A stretch of 34,240 nucleotides of DNA from an uncultured Clostridia bacterium. GTDB taxonomy: Bacteria > Bacillota > Clostridia > RUG12999. This document shows, piece by piece, positions 2,461 to 24,056 of this stretch. Position numbers and translations under genes: made by a program. Location of the stretch: NCBI GenBank assembly GCA_946555455.1, contig CAMNSU010000017.1, positions 1 through 34,240 on the forward strand, in the 5' to 3' direction. Position 1 is the first letter of the stretch. The number at the start of each line of letters is the position of its first letter. The notes under the pieces are model-generated. The model searched no databases and was not told the DNA's origin. It saw only the letters and a list, made by a program, of their open reading frames with translations.

Positions 2461-2489
2461 TTGACAAATTTTATGCGGGCTGCTATAAT
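2461..2489 (+). promoter_or_regulatory. Perfect-consensus sigma-A promoter with extended -10
   Basis: TTGACA (2461-2466), a 17-base spacer, then TATAAT (2484-2489), with TG two bases before the -10 box (2481-2482). All twelve hexamer positions match consensus, the strongest promoter in the window. Start is expected near 2496. There is no good ORF directly after it; the next gene (tetR) starts 260 bases away behind a terminator-like hairpin, so it probably drives a small RNA or a long leader. Confidence 0.8.
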
Positions 2490-2495
2490 TAGGAA

Positions 2496-2606
2496 CAAGA
2501 GATGGACTCAAATAGGATAGTGTAAAAAAACATAGGCAGACATGTTCAGAGCAGTGGGTGGTATCCAGCAAAATGATGTTGCAGAAGGAGAACCACTTAT
2601 TTTTTT
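2496..2606 (+). ncRNA. Candidate ~110-nt structured non-coding RNA
   Basis: The stretch runs from the expected start of the perfect promoter to a seven-T tract at 2600-2606. It contains a hairpin AACAT (2529-2533)/ATGTT (2542-2546), and a longer terminator-like fold in which GTGGT (2558-2562) pairs with ACCAC (2592-2596), enclosing an inner GCAA/TTGC stem. No convincing coding frame is present. I do not recognise it as 6S, SRP, tmRNA, a T-box or a known riboswitch. It could be a trans-acting small RNA or an attenuated leader of tetR. Folding and conservation were judged by eye only. Confidence 0.4.
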
Positions 2607-2617
2607 CACTACAATAT

Positions 2618-2636: not shown

Positions 2637-2678
2637 GATTTCTAAATAAATTTTTAGAAATCGTAGATTGTTTTTTTT
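2637..2678 (+). other. Hairpin with downstream T8 tract in the tetR leader
   Basis: GATTTCTAA (2637-2645) pairs perfectly with TTAGAAATC (2654-2662). Eight bases later comes a run of eight T (2671-2678). The gap makes it a poor classical terminator. The T run overlaps the possible -35 box of the tetR promoter. It may be a weak attenuator, or simply AT-rich promoter DNA. Confidence 0.35.
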
Positions 2679-2695
2679 AATAAGTGTGATAAAAT
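2668..2695 (+). promoter_or_regulatory. Possible tetR promoter
   Basis: TTGTTT (2668-2673), a 16-base spacer and TAAAAT (2690-2695) preceded by TG (extended -10). It is the nearest promoter-like pair to the tetR start at 2749 and lies about 35 bases downstream of the operator palindrome. Confidence 0.4.
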
Positions 2696-2748: not shown

Positions 2749-3411
2749 ATGGAAGGAAATGCAATCAGGACAGAAGCCGGCAGTCAAACGCGCAGACGAG
2801 TGCGCAACAGTGCGGTTGCAAAAGCAAAAATTCTGAAAGCGGCGGAGGACGAATTTGCAAACAATGGTCTTTCCGGTGCAAGAATAGACACGATTGCACT
2901 CGCATCAGGGTATAACAAAAGCCTTATTTATCAATATTTTGGAAACAAAGAAAAGTTATATGAAGTGGTGATTTATAATACCTATTCTAAATTGTCGGAA
3001 GTGGAGCAAGTCATTATTTCAAAAGAGCTGGGGTATGAAGAAAGCGTTGCAATGATTGTGCAGTGCTATTTTGAATTTCTAAAGGACAATCCCAACTTTG
3101 TGAAATTGATTATGCACGAGAACTTGAATCAAGGGAAATATATTGCCGCAAGCGGTTCGCTGCGCGTCAAAGACCCCATGCTCCGAGCGCTGAAAAAAGT
3201 TGTAGAAGCGGGAAAAAGCGAGGGCGTGTTCAACGAGAGCGTTGATGAAACACAGGTCTTGATTTCCTTGATAACCGGTTCGTTTTCCTATTTTTCTAAT
3301 ATCTATACGTTGTCTCAGGTATTACATATTGATTTGTCAGAAGAAGAGAATAGAAAGAAGCGAATGAAGTTTGTAACGGAATCTATTTTAAACTATCTGC
3401 GTAATGGGTGA
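2749..3411 (+). CDS. TetR/AcrR-family transcriptional regulator
   Basis: 220 residues, with AGGAAG nine bases before ATG 2749. Residues ~22-72 form the TetR DNA-binding domain: an A-K-I-L-K-A-A-E-D-E-F-A-N-N-G helix, then D-T-I-A-L-A-S-G-Y-N-K-S-L-I-Y-Q-Y-F-G-N-K-E-K-L-Y, with the classic Y-x-Y-F-x-N-K-E-x-L-Y ending of the recognition helix. The remaining ~145 residues are the helical ligand-binding and dimerisation part; the ligand cannot be read from sequence. The 16-bp palindrome before this gene and again before the dehydrogenase/transporter operon makes it the likely local repressor of both. An inducer derived from the transported glycan is a reasonable guess. Codon use resembles its neighbours. 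Confidence 0.9.
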   Translation: MEGNAIRTEAGSQTRRRVRNSAVAKAKILKAAEDEFANNGLSGARIDTIALASGYNKSLIYQYFGNKEKLYEVVIYNTYSKLSEVEQVIISKELGYEESVAMIVQCYFEFLKDNPNFVKLIMHENLNQGKYIAASGSLRVKDPMLRALKKVVEAGKSEGVFNESVDETQVLISLITGSFSYFSNIYTLSQVLHIDLSEEENRKKRMKFVTESILNYLRNG

Positions 3412-3600: not shown

Positions 3601-3616
3601 AACTAAATAGTTAGTT
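3601..3616. promoter_or_regulatory. Palindromic operator, copy 2 (upstream of the transporter operon)
   Basis: AACTAA-ATAG-TTAGTT. Over 21 bases (3601-3621) it differs from the copy at 2618-2638 at only two central positions, so symmetric arms and the TGTGA flank are kept. A TTGGCA (3589-3594) just upstream could be the -35 box of a promoter that this site would cover. Confidence 0.7.
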
Positions 3617-3689: not shown

Positions 3690-3725
3690 GGAGAGAGGGT
3701 CAAACCTGTAGTGAGGGGTGAAGTT

Positions 3726-4724
3726 ATGCTGAAATTATTGGTTACAATACCAAATGGTTCTATTAAAGACAGCTTTGTTCCATATGAGGTGCGTGAACGT
3801 CTGGAAAAGCTGTTTGACGTGACCTATAACGAAGGAACAGAGCATTATTCCGAAACGGAATTAAAAACGCTGTTAATGGGAAAAGACGTTGTCCTCACAG
3901 GCTGGGGAACGCCAAAACTAACAGAACACGTGCTTGCAGGAAACGATACGTTGAAAATCATTGCCCATGTCGGCGGTTCAGTGGCAGCTATTGTAGATGA
4001 CTATGTCTATGAAAAAGGGATTCGGGTGCTGAGCGGCAATGAAATATATGCGGAGTCAGTGGCGGAGGCTTGCATAGCCTATGCACTGACCGCGCTGCGG
4101 CGGATACCGGATTATCTTGCGGTCACAAGAGCCGGCGGCTGGCGGGCGGAAGATTCTTTGTGGGAGGGGTTGCTTGGTCAAACGGTCGGACTGGTCAGCT
4201 ATGGAATGATTACCAAACATTTTGTGAGAATGCTGCAACCGTTTTCACCCAAGATAAAAGTCTATTCTTCCCATCTGGACGAAGCAGAGTTAAAGAAGAA
4301 CCACATGGAAAAAGCGTCTCTTGCAGAAATTTTTGCAACCTGCAAAGTCATATCCATTCATTCCGCGCTGACGGAAAAAACCTATCACATGATTGATGAA
4401 CCGCTGCTGCAAAGCATTCAGGACGGCGCAGTGCTGATAAACACGGCACGGGGCGGCGTGATTGACGAAGCGGCGCTTGTGAAAGAATTGAAAAAAGGCC
4501 GGTTTCGGGCAGTTTTGGATGTTTATGAACAGGAACCTTTGCCGCCGGAACATCCTTTGCGCAGTATGCAAAATGTATATCCCATTCCGCACATGGGCGG
4601 TCCAACCTATGACAGAAGAAAAGTGGTAACGCAGCGGCTTGCGGACGACATTTTGCGTATTCAAGGCGGAGAATCCCCCGAACTGGAAATCAGCCGAAGT
4701 TATGCTGTGCACATGACAAAATAA
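3726..4724 (+). CDS. D-isomer-specific 2-hydroxyacid dehydrogenase family protein
   Basis: 332 residues from ATG 3726, with AGGGGTG six bases upstream; GTG 3711 is in frame but would swallow this site. The family reduces 2-keto acids to D-2-hydroxy acids with NAD(P)H in the cytoplasm. The catalytic triad is present and correctly spaced: Arg242 in N-T-A-R-G-G, Glu270 in Y-E-Q-E-P-L-P, His289 in P-H-M-G-G. The nucleotide-binding loop is odd: the usual G-x-G-x-x-G is replaced by S-Y-G-M-I-T in V-G-L-V-S-Y-G-M-I-T-K. It leads the operon, 61 bases before the first permease, and probably handles an acid released from the imported sugar. Whether it still binds NAD in the standard way is uncertain. 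Confidence 0.85.
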   Translation: MLKLLVTIPNGSIKDSFVPYEVRERLEKLFDVTYNEGTEHYSETELKTLLMGKDVVLTGWGTPKLTEHVLAGNDTLKIIAHVGGSVAAIVDDYVYEKGIRVLSGNEIYAESVAEACIAYALTALRRIPDYLAVTRAGGWRAEDSLWEGLLGQTVGLVSYGMITKHFVRMLQPFSPKIKVYSSHLDEAELKKNHMEKASLAEIFATCKVISIHSALTEKTYHMIDEPLLQSIQDGAVLINTARGGVIDEAALVKELKKGRFRAVLDVYEQEPLPPEHPLRSMQNVYPIPHMGGPTYDRRKVVTQRLADDILRIQGGESPELEISRSYAVHMTK

Positions 4725-4785
4725 GAAAATCAGGGACAGAAAACGATAAATAAGCTGCAAGAGCGGAAAGGATAGGAAAAAAACA

Positions 4786-5700
4786 ATGACAAAATGCAGA
4801 GAATTTTTTCACGGACTGCGGCGTGATTGGCAGTTGGTGCTGCTGGTACTGCCGGGCGTGATATTTTATTTGATTTACAGATATTTGCCAATGTATGGTT
4901 TGATTATTGCGTTTAAGGATTATGGTATTTATACAGGAATTCACGGAAGCCCATGGGCAGGGCTGAAATATTTTCAGGAATTTTTCTCCTCCGGAGACTT
5001 TTTTCTGCTCTTTAAAAACACCTTGCTAATAGGGGTCTACAGTTTGCTTTGGTCGTTTCCGTTTCCGATTATTTTAGCGATTTTGCTAAATGAAATGCGG
5101 CTGAAATCATTTAAAAAACTGGTGCAGACGGTCACGTTTCTCCCCTCGTTTTTATCAACAGTCGTTGTCTGTTCCATGGTGATTGATTTTCTTTCGCCCA
5201 GCACCGGCATCATCAACACCATCATAAAAGCCTGCGGCGGGGAACCGATTTATTTTATGACAAAACCGGAATGGTTCAGAACCATCTACATATCGTCCGG
5301 CATTTGGCAGCAAACAGGATATAACGCCGTGATTTATCTGGCGGCGCTGACCAGTCTTGACGCCAGTCTGCTGGAGGCGGCGGAAATAGACGGCTGCGGG
5401 AGACTGAAAAAAATCTGGTATATTGTGCTGCCAAGTTTAATGCCCATCATTACCATTATGTTTATTCTGAATTCAGGAAATATCTTTAAAGCGGCGCAGG
5501 ATAAAATGCTGTTGTTATACAATCCGGCGACCTATTCCGTATCCGACATTTTCTCAACGTTTACCTATCGGAAAGGTATCGTGGAGAACAACTATAGTTA
5601 TTCCACCGCGGTCGGATTCTTTGAAGCCATGGTTTCGTTGATTGTTGTCACAGTCACGAATTATGTGAGTAAGAAAATGAATGATACGAGTTTGTGGTAA
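4786..5700 (+). CDS. CUT1-type ABC sugar transporter permease, LplB-like
   Basis: 304 residues. AAAGGAT/AGGA lies eight bases before ATG 4786. About six hydrophobic membrane segments start with L-V-L-L-V-L-P-G-V-I-F-Y-L-I-Y. The cytoplasmic EAA loop that contacts the ATPase is clear: L-E-A-A-E-I-D-G-C-G-R-L-K-K-I-W-Y-I-V-L-P. The R-Y-L-P-M-Y-G-L-I-I-A-F-K-D-Y near the N-terminus is typical of LplB-type permeases, which pair with a YtcP-type permease and import complex oligosaccharides. The partner permease follows at once. No ATPase gene is nearby, as expected where a shared MsmX-like ATPase serves several importers. Confidence 0.93.
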   Translation: MTKCREFFHGLRRDWQLVLLVLPGVIFYLIYRYLPMYGLIIAFKDYGIYTGIHGSPWAGLKYFQEFFSSGDFFLLFKNTLLIGVYSLLWSFPFPIILAILLNEMRLKSFKKLVQTVTFLPSFLSTVVVCSMVIDFLSPSTGIINTIIKACGGEPIYFMTKPEWFRTIYISSGIWQQTGYNAVIYLAALTSLDASLLEAAEIDGCGRLKKIWYIVLPSLMPIITIMFILNSGNIFKAAQDKMLLLYNPATYSVSDIFSTFTYRKGIVENNYSYSTAVGFFEAMVSLIVVTVTNYVSKKMNDTSLW

Positions 5701-5713
5701 GGAGATGAGAAGA

Positions 5714-6571
5714 ATGAAACGAAAAATAACGGTTTTTGATTGTGTCAATTTTTTGATTTTGTCAGCGGTTCTTTTCATCACCATTTACCCGCTGTGGTAT
5801 GTGCTGTGTATTTCGCTCAGTTCCACAGAGATGATTAACAGCGGAACCGTAACGCTATATCCGAAAGGATTTAATTTTGCCGCGTATAAACAGATTTTCG
5901 GGACGTCTAAAATCCTGCGTGCCTATTCCAATTCGGTGGTATATACTGCGATTGGTACGATGTGCTGTATGGCAATGACGATTGTGTTTGTCTATCCGCT
6001 TTCCCGAAAAAACTTTGTGCTGCGCAAACCCATTACCGTCCTGATTACCATCACATTATATTTTACCGGCGGATTGATTCCGACTTTTTTGGTGGTGCAG
6101 GGAACCGGACTGCTGGACTCCATGTGGAGCCTTATCATTCCAAACATCATATGGACGTTTGACGCCATTTTGCTGCGCAACTTTTTTGAAGGTGTTCCGG
6201 CAGAACTGCATGAGGCGGCAATTATAGACGGCGCGAATGAACTGAAAATTTTAATGAAGATATACATTCCGCTTTCCACATCAGCGCTTGCAACCATTGC
6301 TTTGTTCTATGCAATGGGGCAATGGAACAGCTATTTGCTGCCGTCCATCTATATCACATCTTATGAAAAATTACCGCTGCCGGTTATTTTGCGCGACATG
6401 TTGATGGAGGACACCAATTCCAATCCCAATTCCATTGCAAGCGGTCAAATCACGCCGGAAGCGCTGAAAAATGCAACAATGTTTGTCTCTATTTTACCGT
6501 TTTTGATATTTTATCCCTACTTACAGAAATATTTTGTAAAAGGACTGACCATGGGAGCAGTCAAAGGCTAA
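5714..6571 (+). CDS. CUT1-type ABC sugar transporter permease, YtcP-like
   Basis: 285 residues from ATG 5714. The AAGGAG site (5699-5704) overlaps the stop codon of the previous permease, so translation is probably coupled; ATG 5705 lies inside this site's spacing and is less likely. About six membrane segments, beginning with F-L-I-L-S-A-V-L-F-I-T-I-Y-P-L-W-Y. The EAA loop reads E-L-H-E-A-A-I-I-D-G-A-N-E-L-K-I-L. The C-terminal P-Y-L-Q-K-Y-F-V-K-G-L-T-M-G-A-V-K-G is the standard ending of this family. It forms the membrane channel as a heterodimer with the upstream protein. Confidence 0.94.
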   Translation: MKRKITVFDCVNFLILSAVLFITIYPLWYVLCISLSSTEMINSGTVTLYPKGFNFAAYKQIFGTSKILRAYSNSVVYTAIGTMCCMAMTIVFVYPLSRKNFVLRKPITVLITITLYFTGGLIPTFLVVQGTGLLDSMWSLIIPNIIWTFDAILLRNFFEGVPAELHEAAIIDGANELKILMKIYIPLSTSALATIALFYAMGQWNSYLLPSIYITSYEKLPLPVILRDMLMEDTNSNPNSIASGQITPEALKNATMFVSILPFLIFYPYLQKYFVKGLTMGAVKG

Positions 6572-6584
6572 TATTACGGTGGTA

Positions 6585-6606
6585 CGCAGGCAGTGATAGC
6601 CTTGCG
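6585..6606 (+). other. Stem-loop between permease and solute-binding protein genes
   Basis: CGCAGGC (6585-6591) pairs with GCC-T-TGCG (6599-6606) with one bulged T. No T run follows, so it is not a terminator. In many sugar-importer operons such hairpins stabilise the mRNA segment for the abundant binding protein; that role is inferred here. Confidence 0.35.
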
Positions 6607-6651
6607 AAAAAATAAATGATATCGGAAAGAAAGATTAAAGGAGGAATTTTT

Positions 6652-8226
6652 GTGAAAAAGTTTTGGGTTGTAACATTGGCGGTAGCAATTTTTGCTTCCA
6701 TACTGACAGGCTGCGGACAGAAACCGGCGGGAGAACAAATAAGCGATATTGACGTTGCGGCGCTCGGTGATTTGGGCGGTTTGGAAATGCCGCTGGACAA
6801 CAAAAACACTAAAATTACCTGGATAGTTGCTTCCGGTGTGGAAGGATTGAACGACAAATATGCTATGCAGGCACTGCGCAGCATCACAGGCGTGAACGTG
6901 CAGCTCGAAGTATATCCGTTGTCCACAGTGAACGACAAAGTGAAGGTTTTGTTTGCATCCAAAAACCTGCCGGATATTATCGGTTCAGGCATTGCAACCA
7001 TGACGGAAATCAACGACTATGGCGTGCAGGGAGCGTTGGCATCTGTAAATGACAATTTAGACGTTATGCCAAACTTCAAGAAAATTTTCAAGGATAATCC
7101 GGAAAACGATTGGGTATTCAAATCCTATCAGGCAGGGGACGGCAAATTATATGCAATGCATGGCTATGACATAAACCGCGACGTCAACCATGGCGTGCTC
7201 TACCGGAAAGACATTTTTGACAAACATGGAATCGAAATGTGGAACAGCCCCGAGGAGTTTTATCAGGCGCTGAAAAAGCTGAAAGAAATTTATCCGGATT
7301 CCCACCCGTTTACGTCCAAAAACGGCGACGGTATCTTTGACAAACTTGCAACAAGCTGGGGCATTGATGTTTCCAAGGCGGCTTACTATAACGAGGACGA
7401 AAAAATTTGGAAAAGCAGCATCACCAGTCCGGAATATAAAGATGAACTGGACTATCTCAAAAAACTCTATGACGAAGGTTTGATTGACTCTGAATTTTTA
7501 ACGCTCACACAAGCGCAGTGGACGACCAGAATGACACAGGAAAACGTCAGCTTTGTCACATGGGACTGGATTGGCAGACTGGATATGTTCAAAGCGCAGA
7601 CGGCGGAAAGCGTTCCGACCTATGATTTGCGCTACGGCAATCCCATTGGGCCGAAACAGACTGTTGCAACACTGCCGAAAGTGTTCTTCCCCATCACCGT
7701 TTCAAATGGCAAAAACACCAAACTCGCCTGCAAACTGGTAGATTTCTTCTATTCTGACGCAGGGCGTGCGTTTGTTTCCATGGGCGTCCCGGGAGAAACT
7801 TATAACATCAACGACAAAGGCATTGCAGACTATGTGGGTTATGAGAGCGGACAAAAAATTGAAATCACGGAACTCGAAGAAAAATATGGTCTGTATATTG
7901 AAGGCATGTACAGAGGATTTGACCGCCGCTCCAGCTATTTCCAGTTCTCCGAACGGGAGCAGGAGGCACAGGACTATTTTACACAGGAAGGCAGAATGGA
8001 ACCGGAAGACCCGATTCCACTGTTTACAGAAGAAGAACAAAATGAAATCACGAAATATCAGACCAATTTAATGACTGCCTGCAAGGAATTTTCAACAAAC
8101 TACATTCTTTCCGGTAAGACCGGCGACGCGGCTTGGAGCGAATGGGTAGCGAAAGCGGACGGACTTGGCTGCGGCAAAATTGTAGAAATCTATAATGCGG
8201 CGCAGAAGCGGTATGACGCGCAGTAA
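6652..8226 (+). CDS. Extracellular solute-binding lipoprotein of a CUT1 sugar ABC transporter
   Basis: 524 residues from GTG 6652, fixed by AAAGGAGG seven bases upstream (6637-6644); the open frame further upstream has no ribosome binding site. Residues 1-20 are a lipoprotein signal peptide: M-K-K-F, a hydrophobic core, then L-T-G-C, so Cys20 is the predicted lipid anchor. The body is a family 1 solute-binding protein of LplA type, with K-V-K-V-L-F-A-S-K-N-L-P-D-I-I and V-L-Y-R-K-D-I-F-D-K-H-G-I. It captures oligosaccharide at the outer face of the membrane for the two permeases encoded just before it. The ligand is unknown; the neighbouring lyases suggest unsaturated uronic-acid oligosaccharides. 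Confidence 0.93.
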   Translation: MKKFWVVTLAVAIFASILTGCGQKPAGEQISDIDVAALGDLGGLEMPLDNKNTKITWIVASGVEGLNDKYAMQALRSITGVNVQLEVYPLSTVNDKVKVLFASKNLPDIIGSGIATMTEINDYGVQGALASVNDNLDVMPNFKKIFKDNPENDWVFKSYQAGDGKLYAMHGYDINRDVNHGVLYRKDIFDKHGIEMWNSPEEFYQALKKLKEIYPDSHPFTSKNGDGIFDKLATSWGIDVSKAAYYNEDEKIWKSSITSPEYKDELDYLKKLYDEGLIDSEFLTLTQAQWTTRMTQENVSFVTWDWIGRLDMFKAQTAESVPTYDLRYGNPIGPKQTVATLPKVFFPITVSNGKNTKLACKLVDFFYSDAGRAFVSMGVPGETYNINDKGIADYVGYESGQKIEITELEEKYGLYIEGMYRGFDRRSSYFQFSEREQEAQDYFTQEGRMEPEDPIPLFTEEEQNEITKYQTNLMTACKEFSTNYILSGKTGDAAWSEWVAKADGLGCGKIVEIYNAAQKRYDAQ

Positions 8227-18468: not shown

Positions 18469-18508
18469 GATATAGAAAAAAACAGTGAAAGGAAGCAACA
18501 GGAAGAAT

Positions 18509-19732
18509 ATGAAACATCAAAACAGCGGAATGCATTCTATGAAAGAAATCTATCGCATTGGCAGAGGACCGTCCAGTTCCCACACCATGGGACCCGAGCG
18601 TGCATGTGAGAAAGTCAGGGAGGCATATCCACAGGCGGACAAATTTCAAGTGACACTCTATGGGTCGCTTGCCAAAACGGGCGGCGGTCATCGCACAGAC
18701 TATGCCATAGCGCAGACGTTTGGAGACGTTCCGGTAGAAATTTTGTTTGACTATGAGAAAACCGATTTGCCCCACCCGAACACCATGGAAATTGCGGCAT
18801 ATGCGGACGGAAAAGAACTTTGCCGCAAAACGGTATGCAGTGTGGGCGGCGGCGCAATTGAGATTGTGGGCGAACCGAAAAAAGAAAGTGCCTGTGTCTA
18901 TCCCGAAACCTATTTCCGTGAAATAGAACAACGTTGTCAGGCGGAGCAGCTTACCTTGCCGGACTATGCGTATGCATGTGAAGGAACGGAACTCCGTGAT
19001 TACCTGGCGGAGGTTTGGGCACAGATGAAAAAGACGGTGCGCACCGGACTGGAACAAGAGGGAGAAATGCCGGGCGGACTTGGTATTAAGCGCAAGGCGG
19101 GAATGCTGCTGGAAATGGGCAAAGGCAAGTCGTTCGGGCATGAAAAGGAAATCTATATGATTTCCGCCTATGCTTATGCGGCAAGCGAGGAAAACGCCTG
19201 CGGCGGAAAAATGGTAACAGCGCCCACCTGCGGTGCGTCGGGCGTAGTTCCGGCAGTGTTGTATTTCAAACAATTGGAATTTGGCTATGCGGACGAGGCT
19301 ATTTTGGACGCGCTTGCTGTGGCGGGACTGGTGGGAAACTTGATTAAGACCAATGCATCTATCAGCGGTGCGGAATGCGGTTGCCAGGCGGAAATCGGGA
19401 GCGCCTGCGCGATGGCGGCAGCGGCATTTGCCCAGCTGCGGGGACTGACGATAAAACAAATTGAATGTGCGGCTGAAATTGCGCTGGAACATCACTTGGG
19501 ACTTACCTGCGACCCGGTGGGCGGCTTGGTGCAGATACCTTGCATTGAACGCAATGCAGTGGCGGCAATGCGCGCTGTGGATGCGGTCAGTTTGGCGGAA
19601 ATGCTGTATGCACAAAGAAAAATTTCACTGGACTTGGTGATTCAAACCATGTATGAAACCGGAAAGGATTTGTCCTGCCGTTACCGCGAGACTGCGGAGG
19701 GCGGATTGGCGAAACTATACCAACAGGAATAA
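18509..19732 (+). CDS. sdaA: L-serine ammonia-lyase (L-serine dehydratase), single-chain iron-sulfur type
   Basis: 407 residues from ATG 18509 (AGGAAG nearby); GTG 18485 and ATG 18530 are alternatives. It converts L-serine to pyruvate and ammonia in the cytoplasm using a [4Fe-4S] cluster. The N-terminal beta part has the signature G-R-G-P-S-S-S-H-T-M-G-P-E-R-A; the alpha part has T-A-P-T-C-G-A-S-G and D-P-V-G-G-L-V-Q-I-P-C. Cys292, Cys334 and Cys345 are spaced 42 and 11 apart, the spacing of the cluster ligands known in this enzyme family. Beta and alpha parts are fused, as in the single-chain form. It heads a tight cluster in which each gene follows within about 20 bases. A long antisense frame over this gene is only its shadow. 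Confidence 0.93.
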   Translation: MKHQNSGMHSMKEIYRIGRGPSSSHTMGPERACEKVREAYPQADKFQVTLYGSLAKTGGGHRTDYAIAQTFGDVPVEILFDYEKTDLPHPNTMEIAAYADGKELCRKTVCSVGGGAIEIVGEPKKESACVYPETYFREIEQRCQAEQLTLPDYAYACEGTELRDYLAEVWAQMKKTVRTGLEQEGEMPGGLGIKRKAGMLLEMGKGKSFGHEKEIYMISAYAYAASEENACGGKMVTAPTCGASGVVPAVLYFKQLEFGYADEAILDALAVAGLVGNLIKTNASISGAECGCQAEIGSACAMAAAAFAQLRGLTIKQIECAAEIALEHHLGLTCDPVGGLVQIPCIERNAVAAMRAVDAVSLAEMLYAQRKISLDLVIQTMYETGKDLSCRYRETAEGGLAKLYQQE

Positions 19733-19748
19733 AGGAGCGTAGGTAAGC

Positions 19749-21047
19749 GTGACGCTGGCGGAAATAAAGCGAAAACTCATAGATACCATCGAAACGCATC
19801 AAGACGAAATCTGTCGCATTGGCGATGAAATCCTCCAAAATCCCGAACGCGGCTACTGTGAGGAAAAAACCTCGGCGTTGGTGCGGCGGGAACTGGAAAA
19901 ACGGGGCATTGCCTATGACTATCCCTGCGCGCTTACCGGCGTAAAAGGAAAACTCCGCGGCAGGGAATCAAACGCAAATGTTTGTATCATAGGAGAAATG
20001 GACGCGCTGTGGTGTGCAGGCAGTCCCATTGCGAATGAAACAGGGATTGCCCACGCCTGTGGACACAATGCCCAAGTGGCGGCAATGCTGGGCGCGGCAA
20101 TCGCATTTGCGGACAGCGGCGTGATGGCATATTTGGACGGAGACGTCACTTTTTTGGCGGTGCCTGCCGAGGAATTTATTGATATGGAATACCGTAAGTC
20201 CTTGAAGGAAAGCGGCAAAATAGCTTATTATGGCGGCAAGCAGCAGCTCATTGCCGAGGGGGCATTTGATGATGTGGATATGGCAATGATGGTGCACGCC
20301 CAGCCAAACGAACCGAAGGCGAAATTGTTTGTGCAGGGGGAGAATCTGGGGTTTTTGGCAAAGACAATCACCTTTCACGGAAGAGCCGTGCACGGAAGTA
20401 CGCCGTTTGACGGCGTGAATGCGCTGAATGCGGCGGCGCTTGCCATTTTGGGTATACACGCCAACCGCGAAACATTTCGGGAAGAAGAAAAAATTCGCAT
20501 TCATCCCATCATCACCAAAGGCGGCGACGTGGTAAATTCGGTGCCGTCAGAGGTGTGTATGGATACATATGTACGAGGCGCAAGCTATGAGGCGATTCAA
20601 AAAGGCAACCGCGCGGTGGAAAACGCGGCAAAAGGCGCGGCAGAGATGGTAGGCGCGGCTGTTACGTTTGAAGATATTCCGGGCTATTTGCCGCTAAAAT
20701 AGAGTAAATCGTTGTCCGAGGTGTTTTAGAGAAAAGCCGCGCAGCTTTTGGGACAGGAAAATTTGGTCTATGGTGCGGACATAACAGGTTCTTCCGATAT
20801 TGGAGATTTGAGCAGTATTCTTCCGGTGATTCAACCGTCTGTCGGCGGATTTGCCGGAGCGCTGCACGAACAGCAGTTCCATGTAACAGAGAAACAAACG
20901 GCATATGTATTGCCGGCAAAAATAGTAGCAATGACTGTAGCTGAGCTGTTATATCATCATGCAGAAACAGCGAAACAAATTAAAAAAAGTTTTGAAGCAA
21001 AATTGACAAAAGAGGAATACAGGAACTACTTGGAAGGGAAGGTATAA
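19749..21047 (+). pseudogene. M20-family amidohydrolase broken by two in-frame TAG codons
   Basis: Start GTG 19749, with AAAGGAG overlapping the previous stop codon. Homology runs in one unbroken frame for 433 codons, but TAG occurs at codon 318 (20700-20702) and codon 327 (20727-20729). Before the stops: M20 metal-binding H-A-C-G-H-N-A-Q, P-A-E-E-F-I-D with the catalytic Glu, and H-G-R-A-V-H-G-S-T-P-F for the dimerisation domain. After them, the family continues with T/S-G-S-S-D-I-G-D-L-S and the conserved C-terminal tail. Each TAG is one C-to-T change from CAG (Gln). The family hydrolyses N-acyl or amide bonds (aminobenzoyl-glutamate hydrolase-like). TAG is a normal stop in neighbouring genes, so a recent pseudogene is the simplest view. 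Confidence 0.85.
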
Positions 21048-21050
21048 ACC

Positions 21051-22079
21051 ATGAAAAGAGAAAAATGGACAGAGGAGCGGTTGAATCACCTGCTGACCAC
21101 GCCAAGCAGGGCGTTGGTGGAGGATATGAAAAAAATCCAGGGGGATATTATGATTCTGGGCGCAGGCGGTAAGATGGGCCCCACGCTTTGTGTGTTGGCA
21201 AAAAACGCTGCAAAAGCGGCGGGTGTGGACAAACGGATTATCGCTGTATCCCGCGGCTCTGACATGGTTGCAACGCAGCTTATGCTGGATAACGGCATTG
21301 AGGTCATTGCGGCGAATTTGCTTGAAAAAGAAAAGCTATATGCGCTTCCTGAAGTGGAAAATGTGATTTATATGGCAGGCAAGAAGTTTGGTACCTGCGG
21401 CAATGAGTGGCAGACATGGGCAATGAACTCCACGCTTCCGGCATTTGTGGCGGATAAGTTCAAAAAATCGAATATTGTGGTATTCTCCTCCGGCAATATT
21501 TATCCGATTGTGAAACTCGCGGAAGGCGGTTGTCGGGAAACAGATCCGGTGGAACCGGTGGGAGAATATACCATGAGTTGTCTGGCGCGGGAGCGCGCAT
21601 TTGAATATGCGGCAAATGCTTTCGGCACGAAAATTTTTATTTATCGTTTGAATTTTGCTGTGGATTTGCGCTATGGCGTGCTCTATGATGTGGCGGAGAA
21701 AATTCTAAAGGGAGAAAAGATTAGTCTTTCCACGCCGTGTTTTAACTTCATCTGGCAGGGCACGGCAAATGAAATTGCAATTCGGGGACTGCTTCATGCA
21801 GATTCGCCCATGAAAGTGATGAATGTGACAGGGCCGGAAACCATGTCCATTCGCAAAGTGGCGTTGGAACTGGGGGAATATCTCGGGAAAGAGCCGTTGT
21901 TTGAAGAAAACGAGGGAAACGACGCGTATTTGAACGACGCTTCTCTGGCAATGGAGACGTTCGGATATCCGAGTATCAGCGCGAAATCGTTGATTCGTTG
22001 GCAGGCGGAATGGCTGCTGGACGGCTGCCGGACGCTGAACAAACCCACGCACTTTGAGGAAAGAAGGGGGAGTTATTGA
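21051..22079 (+). CDS. NAD-dependent epimerase/dehydratase family protein
   Basis: 342 residues from ATG 21051; GGAAGGGAAGG lies upstream, and the previous gene's stop codon is three bases away. The Rossmann loop is I-L-G-A-G-G-K-M-G near residue 35, typical of extended short-chain dehydrogenases acting on (nucleotide) sugars or sugar acids. The active-site Ser is likely in V-V-F-S-S-G-N-I-Y. The position of the usual Y-x-x-x-K shows Y173-T-M-S-C177, so the catalytic Lys is replaced by Cys. It may be a non-standard member that acts on a cluster-specific sugar derivative. Its stop overlaps the next start as TGATG, so the two are translationally coupled. Confidence 0.8.
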   Translation: MKREKWTEERLNHLLTTPSRALVEDMKKIQGDIMILGAGGKMGPTLCVLAKNAAKAAGVDKRIIAVSRGSDMVATQLMLDNGIEVIAANLLEKEKLYALPEVENVIYMAGKKFGTCGNEWQTWAMNSTLPAFVADKFKKSNIVVFSSGNIYPIVKLAEGGCRETDPVEPVGEYTMSCLARERAFEYAANAFGTKIFIYRLNFAVDLRYGVLYDVAEKILKGEKISLSTPCFNFIWQGTANEIAIRGLLHADSPMKVMNVTGPETMSIRKVALELGEYLGKEPLFEENEGNDAYLNDASLAMETFGYPSISAKSLIRWQAEWLLDGCRTLNKPTHFEERRGSY

Positions 22080-23155
22080 TGAACCGGCACGAAAAAGCGC
22101 TGGACATTTTGCGGCAGGGAACGGTAATACCCGCAACGCCGCTGGCGCTGAACAGCGACAGAACGCTGGACGAAAAAGGATTGCGCCTTTTGATGAACTA
22201 TTATTTGCATTGCGGCGTAGGCGGCATTGCAACGGCAGTACATACCACGCAGTTTGAAATCCGCGAACCGGAAATCGGGTTGTTTGAACCGGTACTGCAA
22301 TTTGTGGCAGATGAAGTGGAAAAGTTTGAACAAAAACAAAATAAAGTGATTGTGAAGGTTGCGGGCGTTTGCGGCGAAACGAAGCAGGCAGTGAAAGAAG
22401 CGGAACTTGCCAAAAAATATGGCTATGACGCTGTGCTGCTCAGTCCCGGCGGGCTGAATGACAGACCGGAAAGCGAACTGATAGAGCGCACACGGGCGGT
22501 TGCTAAGATGATGCCGGTGATTGGGTTCTACCTGCAAACGGCAGTGGGCGGACGCGTGTTTTCCTATGACTATTGGCAGCAGATTTGCGCGATAGATAAT
22601 GTCGTTGCAATCAAATGCGCTTCGTTCAACCGTTATCAGACGTTGGAGGTGGTGCGCGCAGCTGCAATGTCGGCGCGCAGCAGTGATATTACGCTATATA
22701 CCGGAAATGACGACAATATTGTGATAGACCTGCTGACAAAATACCGTTTTCAAAAGAATGGCAAAGAGATTGTGAAAGCCTTTGAAGGCGGATTGCTGGG
22801 ACATTGGTCGGTATGGACGAAAAAAGCAGTTGAAATTTTTGAAACGGTTCAGAAAGAGAAAAACAATGCGGCGGTTTCGACGAAGCTGCTGACGCTGGCG
22901 GCAGAAGTGACGGACGCCAACAGCGCGTTTTTTGATACGGCAAACGGTTTTAAAGGCTGCATTGCAGGACTGCATGAGGTGCTGCGGCAGCAGGGACTGA
23001 TGGAAAACACGCTTTGCCTGAATCCGGCGGAGACCATGTCACAAGGACAGCTTGAAGAAATTGAACGGGTGCATGACATGTATCCGCATTTGCATGACGA
23101 TGCATTTATTACCGAACATCTTGAGGAATGGAAAGCAAACGTGGGGCTGAAATAG
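22079..23155 (+). CDS. Dihydrodipicolinate synthase/N-acetylneuraminate lyase-family aldolase
   Basis: 358 residues from ATG 22079, with AAGGGGGAG just upstream and a one-base overlap with the previous stop. A class I aldolase barrel: Lys179 in V-V-A-I-K-C-A forms the Schiff base and Tyr151 in I-G-F-Y-L-Q is its partner; the spacing of 28 equals that of DapA. The substrate loop that normally reads G-T-T-G-E is here T-A-V-H-T-T-Q-F-E, so it is not a true DapA for lysine synthesis. It is longer than DapA (~290 residues) by about 65, mostly at the C-terminus. The family usually splits a 2-keto-3-deoxy acid, often to pyruvate plus an aldehyde, or runs the reverse. Context suggests sugar-acid catabolism. 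Confidence 0.87.
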   Translation: MNRHEKALDILRQGTVIPATPLALNSDRTLDEKGLRLLMNYYLHCGVGGIATAVHTTQFEIREPEIGLFEPVLQFVADEVEKFEQKQNKVIVKVAGVCGETKQAVKEAELAKKYGYDAVLLSPGGLNDRPESELIERTRAVAKMMPVIGFYLQTAVGGRVFSYDYWQQICAIDNVVAIKCASFNRYQTLEVVRAAAMSARSSDITLYTGNDDNIVIDLLTKYRFQKNGKEIVKAFEGGLLGHWSVWTKKAVEIFETVQKEKNNAAVSTKLLTLAAEVTDANSAFFDTANGFKGCIAGLHEVLRQQGLMENTLCLNPAETMSQGQLEEIERVHDMYPHLHDDAFITEHLEEWKANVGLK

Positions 23156-23171
23156 AAAGAAGGAAAACAGC

Positions 23172-24056
23172 ATGATAAACATTGGAATCATTGGGTCGCA
23201 GAGCATTCATGCAAGAGAATTTGCGAAGGTCTGTAATCTGCCGGATGAACATGGTTCGTTTTTGATTCCGGATTGCAGAGTGACGGCGGTATGCGGCATG
23301 GACGACGTGCCGGAGCATACTGCGGATATAGCGCGGCAGGGGTGCATTCCACGCATTCTCCAGCAGCCGGAAGCGTTGTTTGATTTTTGCGACGCTGTTA
23401 TGGTGGCGACGCGAAACGGTGATAACCATGTTGCGCTTGCTTTGCCGTTTCTGCGGAAAGGATATCCGGTGTTTTTGGATAAACCGGTTTGCATCTCCAA
23501 AGAAGATATTGCGGTTTTGCAAAACGAAGTGCGGCAGCGGGACTGCATCATTGCCGGCGGGTCGGGTATGCAGCACAACCGAAGTCTGAAAGAATTAAAA
23601 CAGTTGATGGACAGCGGCGCGGTTGGCGGAGTCAAAGGTATTTCTCTGAACCACAACGGCGATATCGACAGTCCCTACGGCGGCATATTCTTTTATGCGT
23701 GCCACGGTGTGGAAATGATGCTACAGCTTTTGGGGAAAGAACCGAAGTCGGTGCAGACAAACGTGCTGACACATGACCAATTTTCCATTTTCGTGAAATA
23801 TCAAGACAGATTTGCCAATTTAATCATGACCAGTGGATATCAGGACTATTTTGTCAATGTATATGGGGAAAAGAGAAACATTGCATATAGAATTGACGCG
23901 GACGATATTTTCCGCGAAACCATGGTACACTTTGCAAATCGGATACGGGAACATAGAATCACTAAATCGGTGGACGATTTAGTGCGCCATGTCCGCGTTT
24001 TGCAGGCAACCAAAACTTCCATTGAGAAAAAGACAGAAGTTCCGGTTGAAAAATAG
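23172..24056 (+). CDS. Gfo/Idh/MocA-family oxidoreductase
   Basis: 294 residues, with AAGGAAA before ATG 23172. The N-terminal Rossmann domain opens with I-N-I-G-I-I-G-S and carries F-L-D-K-P-V, the family's E-K-P site with Asp in place of Glu. The C-terminal part is shorter than usual (family ~330-380). A H-N-G-D-I-D-S-P-Y-G-G-I-F-F-Y-A-C-H-G-V-E-M-M segment supplies the expected His near the substrate. These enzymes oxidise or reduce sugar or inositol hydroxyls with NAD(P). It is the last gene of the serine dehydratase-to-oxidoreductase cluster; a terminator follows. Confidence 0.88.
   Translation: MINIGIIGSQSIHAREFAKVCNLPDEHGSFLIPDCRVTAVCGMDDVPEHTADIARQGCIPRILQQPEALFDFCDAVMVATRNGDNHVALALPFLRKGYPVFLDKPVCISKEDIAVLQNEVRQRDCIIAGGSGMQHNRSLKELKQLMDSGAVGGVKGISLNHNGDIDSPYGGIFFYACHGVEMMLQLLGKEPKSVQTNVLTHDQFSIFVKYQDRFANLIMTSGYQDYFVNVYGEKRNIAYRIDADDIFRETMVHFANRIREHRITKSVDDLVRHVRVLQATKTSIEKKTEVPVEK

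Follow-up and report, generated by a model that had tools for sequence, protein, structure and literature searches.

The stretch of DNA analysed here (hereafter the window; 34,240 nt) is contig 17 of a 3.1-Mb genome (181 contigs; G000) of an uncultured Clostridia bacterium. In the part considered, a heparinase-like gene is followed by a consensus promoter (P1), a leader region, a lone tetR gene and an operon that the TetR protein likely controls, with the following features:

281-2248: heparinase II/III-like gene, upstream of P1
2461-2489, forward strand: P1, a perfect sigma-A-type promoter (TTGACA-17-TATAAT with TG, extended -10)
2490-2515, forward strand: start region and conserved 5' segment (3/26 mismatches versus G001)
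2516-2552, forward strand: drifting middle of the RNA (16/37 mismatches and 8 inserted bases in G001)
2556-2598, forward strand: interrupted hairpin of 7+3+4 bp, with 1x2 and 1x4 internal loops and a 7-nt loop
2600-2606, forward strand: T7 tract, a possible terminator tail
2610-2615, forward strand: relic -10 (TACAAT) of an older operator-adjacent promoter, judged by distant homologues
2618-2633, no strand assigned: predicted TetR operator, AACTAAACGGTTAGTT, by sequence comparison
2668-2695, forward strand: P3, a candidate for a weak promoter (TTGTTT-16-TAAAAT) that is poorer in G002 and deleted from G001
2749-3411, forward strand: tetR (TetR_N, TetR_C_29; 220 aa), lone, downstream of the leader
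3601-3616, no strand assigned: second predicted TetR operator, AACTAAATAGTTAGTT, ahead of the dehydrogenase/ABC operon
3711-8226, forward strand: likely target operon (2-hydroxyacid dehydrogenase, two ABC permeases, solute-binding protein)

We compared the locus with two further genomes of the same genus, G001 and G002, giving three genomes in total; G002 is 98% identical to G000 across the leader locus, and G001 is the most divergent. Among 99 genomes, long DNA matches to the locus came from G001 (85%) and G002 (98%) only, the rest being short and weak, and we found homologues of the stretch in these three gut bacteria only.

P1 is exactly as an earlier note on this DNA had described it, matching the consensus at 12 of 12 positions with a 17-nt spacer and TG, and it is the sole exact 12/12 site on either strand of the window. 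As a sequence, P1 is far beyond chance. Exact 12/12 promoters number 117 in G000, 86 in G001 and 120 in G002, as against 1, 3 and 2 sites, respectively, when the pattern is read backwards as a control; most of them are therefore real promoters, and they are common in G000. At a density of ~1 per 27 kb, one such site in a 34-kb window is about average, so the step from an exceptional promoter to an independent RNA does not hold: a perfect promoter in G000 is an everyday promoter and no sign of an unusual RNA. Of the 117 sites we examined 48, drawn from those listed by the scan after a few in repeats or close to the ends of contigs had been set aside. A plausible ORF start lies 32–627 nt downstream (median 88) in 23 of the 48, counted outside other ORFs and the tRNA cases, and the 259 nt that separate P1 from tetR rank 19th of these 23. 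A tRNA lies within 250 nt of five of the 48, TG precedes the -10 in 16, and nine (six loci) are part of units, or of tandem copies of units, that set an RNA opposite a small hydrophobic ORF.

The further argument that a perfect promoter would not normally serve a lone TetR gene fails on the homologues of tetR, which occur in 34 of the 391 genomes of the class (E ≤ 1e-12). We read the upstream DNA of 22 distant loci (L076-L097). Ten of them have a near-consensus promoter and, 2–7 nt beyond it, an AACTAAnnnnTTACTT-like operator, with tetR coming next (L076, L077, L078, L079, L081, L089, L090, L091 and L097 flagged by script, L092 by eye), the promoter being a 12/12 match at two (L079, L097). The remaining 12 loci include several in which tetR lies close behind another gene, operon-like, and two (L086, L087) that have a promoter without an operator. 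Judged by these upstream sequences, a strong promoter ahead of tetR is a habit of this TetR family.

Between G000 and G001, four-fold degenerate sites differ at 39%, 36% and 35% in three neighbouring genes. Against this background, the promoter block (2456-2489) has 1 mismatch in 34 positions and the hairpin block (2553-2605) has 2 in 53. The corresponding binomial p values at a neutral divergence of 36% are 4e-6 and 2e-8; they assume independence between sites, and we set the limits of the blocks with the alignment already in view. By this alignment, the conservation of promoter and hairpin exceeds chance. Between the heparinase-like gene and P1 lies a strong terminator-like inverted repeat (2305-2334). 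Used as an internal control, this hairpin has 4 of 10 compared pairs changed in G001, with all 10 still paired. Because a plain terminator thus tolerated change while pairing, selection on the 2553-2605 block seems to act on its sequence, beyond pairing alone. The covariance analysis that the earlier note had proposed found the upper-stem pairs invariant among the three homologues, one lower pair lost in G001 and no compensatory change; as the pairs do not vary, it lends no covariation support to an RNA structure. The frozen loop and internal loops suggest a role beyond termination, and an RNA with its own function fits them at least equally well.

The RNA that P1 would produce has a predicted start at ~2495-2497, from the position of the -10, and the T7 tract is present at 2600-2606 as the earlier note had it. 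Of its two stem-loops, the second stands (2556-2598, followed by TTATTTTTTT or a close variant), whereas the first amounts to a 3-bp stem, GAG/CTC. The 5' half of the RNA folds like shuffled sequence (z 0.27), the whole 113-nt RNA gives z -0.50 in the window and z -0.47 in G001, and the hairpin taken alone is marginal (z -2.3, p 0.023 in the window; z -1.3, p 0.11 in G001). Nor was it among the terminators listed by a scan of the window. The proposed ~110-nt structured RNA is accordingly supported in one part, since a short transcript ending near 2606 is plausible and its ends are conserved, while its whole fold is no better than that of shuffles. That the RNA is unrecognised agrees with Rfam, which gave 0 matches in the window at curated thresholds; a relaxed search of 2380-2780 returned implausible sub-threshold matches only. 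A T-box leader was considered and rejected, given that GGGTGGTA bears only a resemblance to the T-box motif and that Rfam gave no T-box match even at E up to 10. We also discarded the reading of 2490-2616 as a short insert between copies of a CTATAAT repeat, since two -10 boxes account for the repeat.

The stretch also lacks a gene, as previously stated, in that no long ORF lies between P1 and the tetR start (2749). Among the short ORFs in 2461-2748, those whose start is common to the three genomes are frames without a Shine-Dalgarno sequence, and the changes in them are few and not at silent positions. That the locus encodes a conserved short peptide, or a small toxin on the opposite strand, is therefore largely refuted and, to our minds, very improbable: a few short frames are present, and G000 is rich in small hydrophobic ORFs that face short RNAs, but across the three genomes these frames are interrupted or their starts disappear, a ribosome site is absent and silent changes are not in excess. 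The window RNA was likewise rejected as a type I antitoxin, no opposite-strand small hydrophobic ORF being kept across the three genomes.

In a serious rival account, which we consider possible though somewhat unlikely, the locus makes an independent small regulatory RNA of ~110 nt that is read from P1, ended by the hairpin and T-tract, and acts in trans or on a protein, with tetR served by its own promoter downstream. The conservation of both ends, loop included, against a neutral divergence of 35–39% speaks for such an RNA, as do the other short non-coding RNAs of G000 that are driven by perfect promoters, and in G000 P3 could supply the tetR promoter; between the hairpin and tetR, however, neither G001 nor G002 has a proper promoter for the gene. 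The fold statistics above count against it, and we found no second copy of the RNA in G000 and none outside the genus in our searches. The RNA always lies directly ahead of tetR, which also tells against independence but says little with three related genomes. If this account were true, it would add one more lineage-restricted small RNA.

The DNA past the T-tract preserves traces of the arrangement seen in the distant homologues. The relic TACAAT (TATAAT in G001, CACAAT in G002) lies two bases before the operator, as in L076, with which the window shares TACAATATAACTAAAC letter for letter, and an independent search returned a 40-nt match at the place of the relic -10 and operator. At the position of the corresponding -35 (2587-2592) the sequence reads GGAGAA, i.e., the -35 has been lost. 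Ahead of tetR, no candidate but P1 scores ≥ 9 in each of the three genomes, and since P1 alone is both strong and common to the three, tetR is probably transcribed from P1, through the hairpin. We also considered, and dropped, the idea that TetR activates transcription at P3 and the dehydrogenase from around -70, P3 being missing in G001. The exact operator TAACTAAnnnnTTAGTT occurs at two sites only in each of G000, G001 and G002, one at tetR and one at the dehydrogenase, and TetR likely governs, by these predicted sites, a two-site regulon of tetR and the dehydrogenase/ABC operon. Both operators are preceded by a run of T6–7 and then 10–11 nt.

At the second operator, the T7 tract stands 10 nt before the operator without a hairpin in all three genomes; the T-tract may therefore be an operator or promoter feature and not a terminator. 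This bears on an account that we regard as unlikely, in which hairpin and T-tract matter as DNA or are relics, the conserved block consists mainly of promoter and operator sequence (T-tract, relic -10, operator and perhaps another protein's site), and P1 reads into tetR without meaningful termination. Besides the similar spacing at the second operator, the marginal hairpin energy, its absence from the terminator scan and the lack of compensatory changes all agree with this account. It would nevertheless make a coincidence, and an unlikely one, of a hairpin that ends right at a T-tract, and the DNA upstream of the second operator has no block of such length and conservation.

The reading that we favour, while holding it at a little short of even, is that the stretch is a genus-specific, partly terminated 5' leader of tetR, possibly coupled to roadblocking by TetR past the T-tract. 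Transcription from P1 would start at ~2495; a fraction of the transcripts would end at ~2606, yielding the ~110-nt RNA, and the rest would continue into tetR. The distance from T-tract to operator is 11 nt, equal in the three genomes, and RNA polymerase covers ~15–20 nt ahead of its active centre, so that a TetR protein bound at 2618-2633 would halt the polymerase with its active centre at about the T-tract. We speculate that a polymerase so halted would allow the weak, interrupted hairpin to terminate efficiently, and that in the presence of the TetR ligand the polymerase would read through and TetR would be made. In this way tetR would regulate itself negatively through roadblock-assisted attenuation; the ~110-nt RNA itself may be no more than a by-product. 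We give a rather low probability to a hybrid switch in which the TetR repressor completes a weak intrinsic terminator via the operator 11 nt past the T-tract and the released ~110-nt RNA may have a second job. If the leader reading is true, tetR has shifted, within one lineage, from autorepression by an operator over the promoter to a hairpin leader with a downstream operator, and the locus offers a testable case of attenuation and roadblocking combined. Overall, this is a modest find. The conserved stretch is probably transcribed, either as a leader or as a small RNA, and most likely forms the beginning of the tetR transcript.

Autoregulation by a transcriptional roadblock has been described for LacI at O3 (PMC3711431) and for C.Kpn2I (PMC6237814), and Mfd largely clears away polymerase that has stalled at LacI (PMC4132739). 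As in the LacI and C.Kpn2I cases, the operator in the window lies inside the predicted transcribed region of the regulator's own gene, downstream of the promoter, and a bound regulator would stop the polymerase and leave a short transcript. Unlike them, the roadblock predicted here would act directly downstream of a conserved hairpin and T-tract, and its regulator belongs to the TetR family. With the classical TetR autorepression of its own distant homologues it shares the operator type and a remnant of the spacing between -10 and operator, whereas its active-looking promoter lies ~130 nt upstream of the operator and does not abut it. With terminated leaders such as attenuators and riboswitches the locus shares a strong promoter and, between it and a gene, a conserved hairpin and a T-tract, although it has no alternative structure, known ligand or Rfam match. 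A further likeness is to the BsrG-like type I antitoxin RNAs of G000 (perfect promoter, ~120 nt, terminator-like end, strand without an ORF); the window RNA differs in having no opposite-strand hydrophobic ORF kept in three genomes.

Beyond the genus, a covariance model built from the three sequences gave a match at E ≤ 0.1 in 7 of the 391 genomes of the class, three of them being the genus itself. In the other four genomes (five places, E 0.02–0.08), none of the places shows the hairpin on inspection, nor a near-perfect promoter directly upstream, except for one L036 site with one mismatch per hexamer. Run over 27 tetR-homologue loci and L012, the model gave three weak matches (E 0.77–5.6), the best of which precedes the promoter of the respective tetR and resembles the terminator of a different gene. 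A pattern scan of a contig collection returned five stretches; two are records of the genus, and those from an alphaproteobacterium, a Bacteroidales member and Paludibacter were taken as chance. Searches of viral contigs, phages and plasmids gave no match, and a limited search of literature titles found none on an arrangement of tetR leader, hairpin and operator.

Elsewhere in these genomes we observed a multi-copy, often tandem, type I toxin-antitoxin-like family (L133, L134, L136, L139, L059 and L074 in G000; L148 in G001). In each unit, a perfect promoter drives a ~120-nt RNA convergent with a 20–26-aa hydrophobic ORF that has a strong ribosome site (e.g., MKYILKIIVFVMIILLVFSIKAQ), and the 5' segments of both RNAs are alike. 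One copy scored 43 bits against Rfam BsrG (E 6e-8), i.e., below the gathering threshold of 55, and nothing in Pfam rose above the cut-off. A DNA search with one stretch returned 15 matches in G000, 23 in G002 and 5 in G001, of which many are partial; the remaining 6 of the 9 genomes of the taxonomic family gave none.

A gene run at 18485-24056 of the window comprises serine dehydratase-like, M20 peptidase-like, epimerase-like, DapA/NanA-like and Gfo/Idh-like genes, names that, DapA/NanA-like excepted, are presumptive, judged from the sequences. The run resembles the DNA immediately 5' of the tetR homologue at several loci (serine dehydratase-like at L080 and L085, DapA-like at L093-L096). As similar genes precede the tetR homologue in several relatives, the TetR of the window may belong to the pathway of this run. 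Close to the tetR homologue at L088 (G290), we noted by eye a tRNA-like sequence after an exact TTGACA-18-TATAAT promoter.
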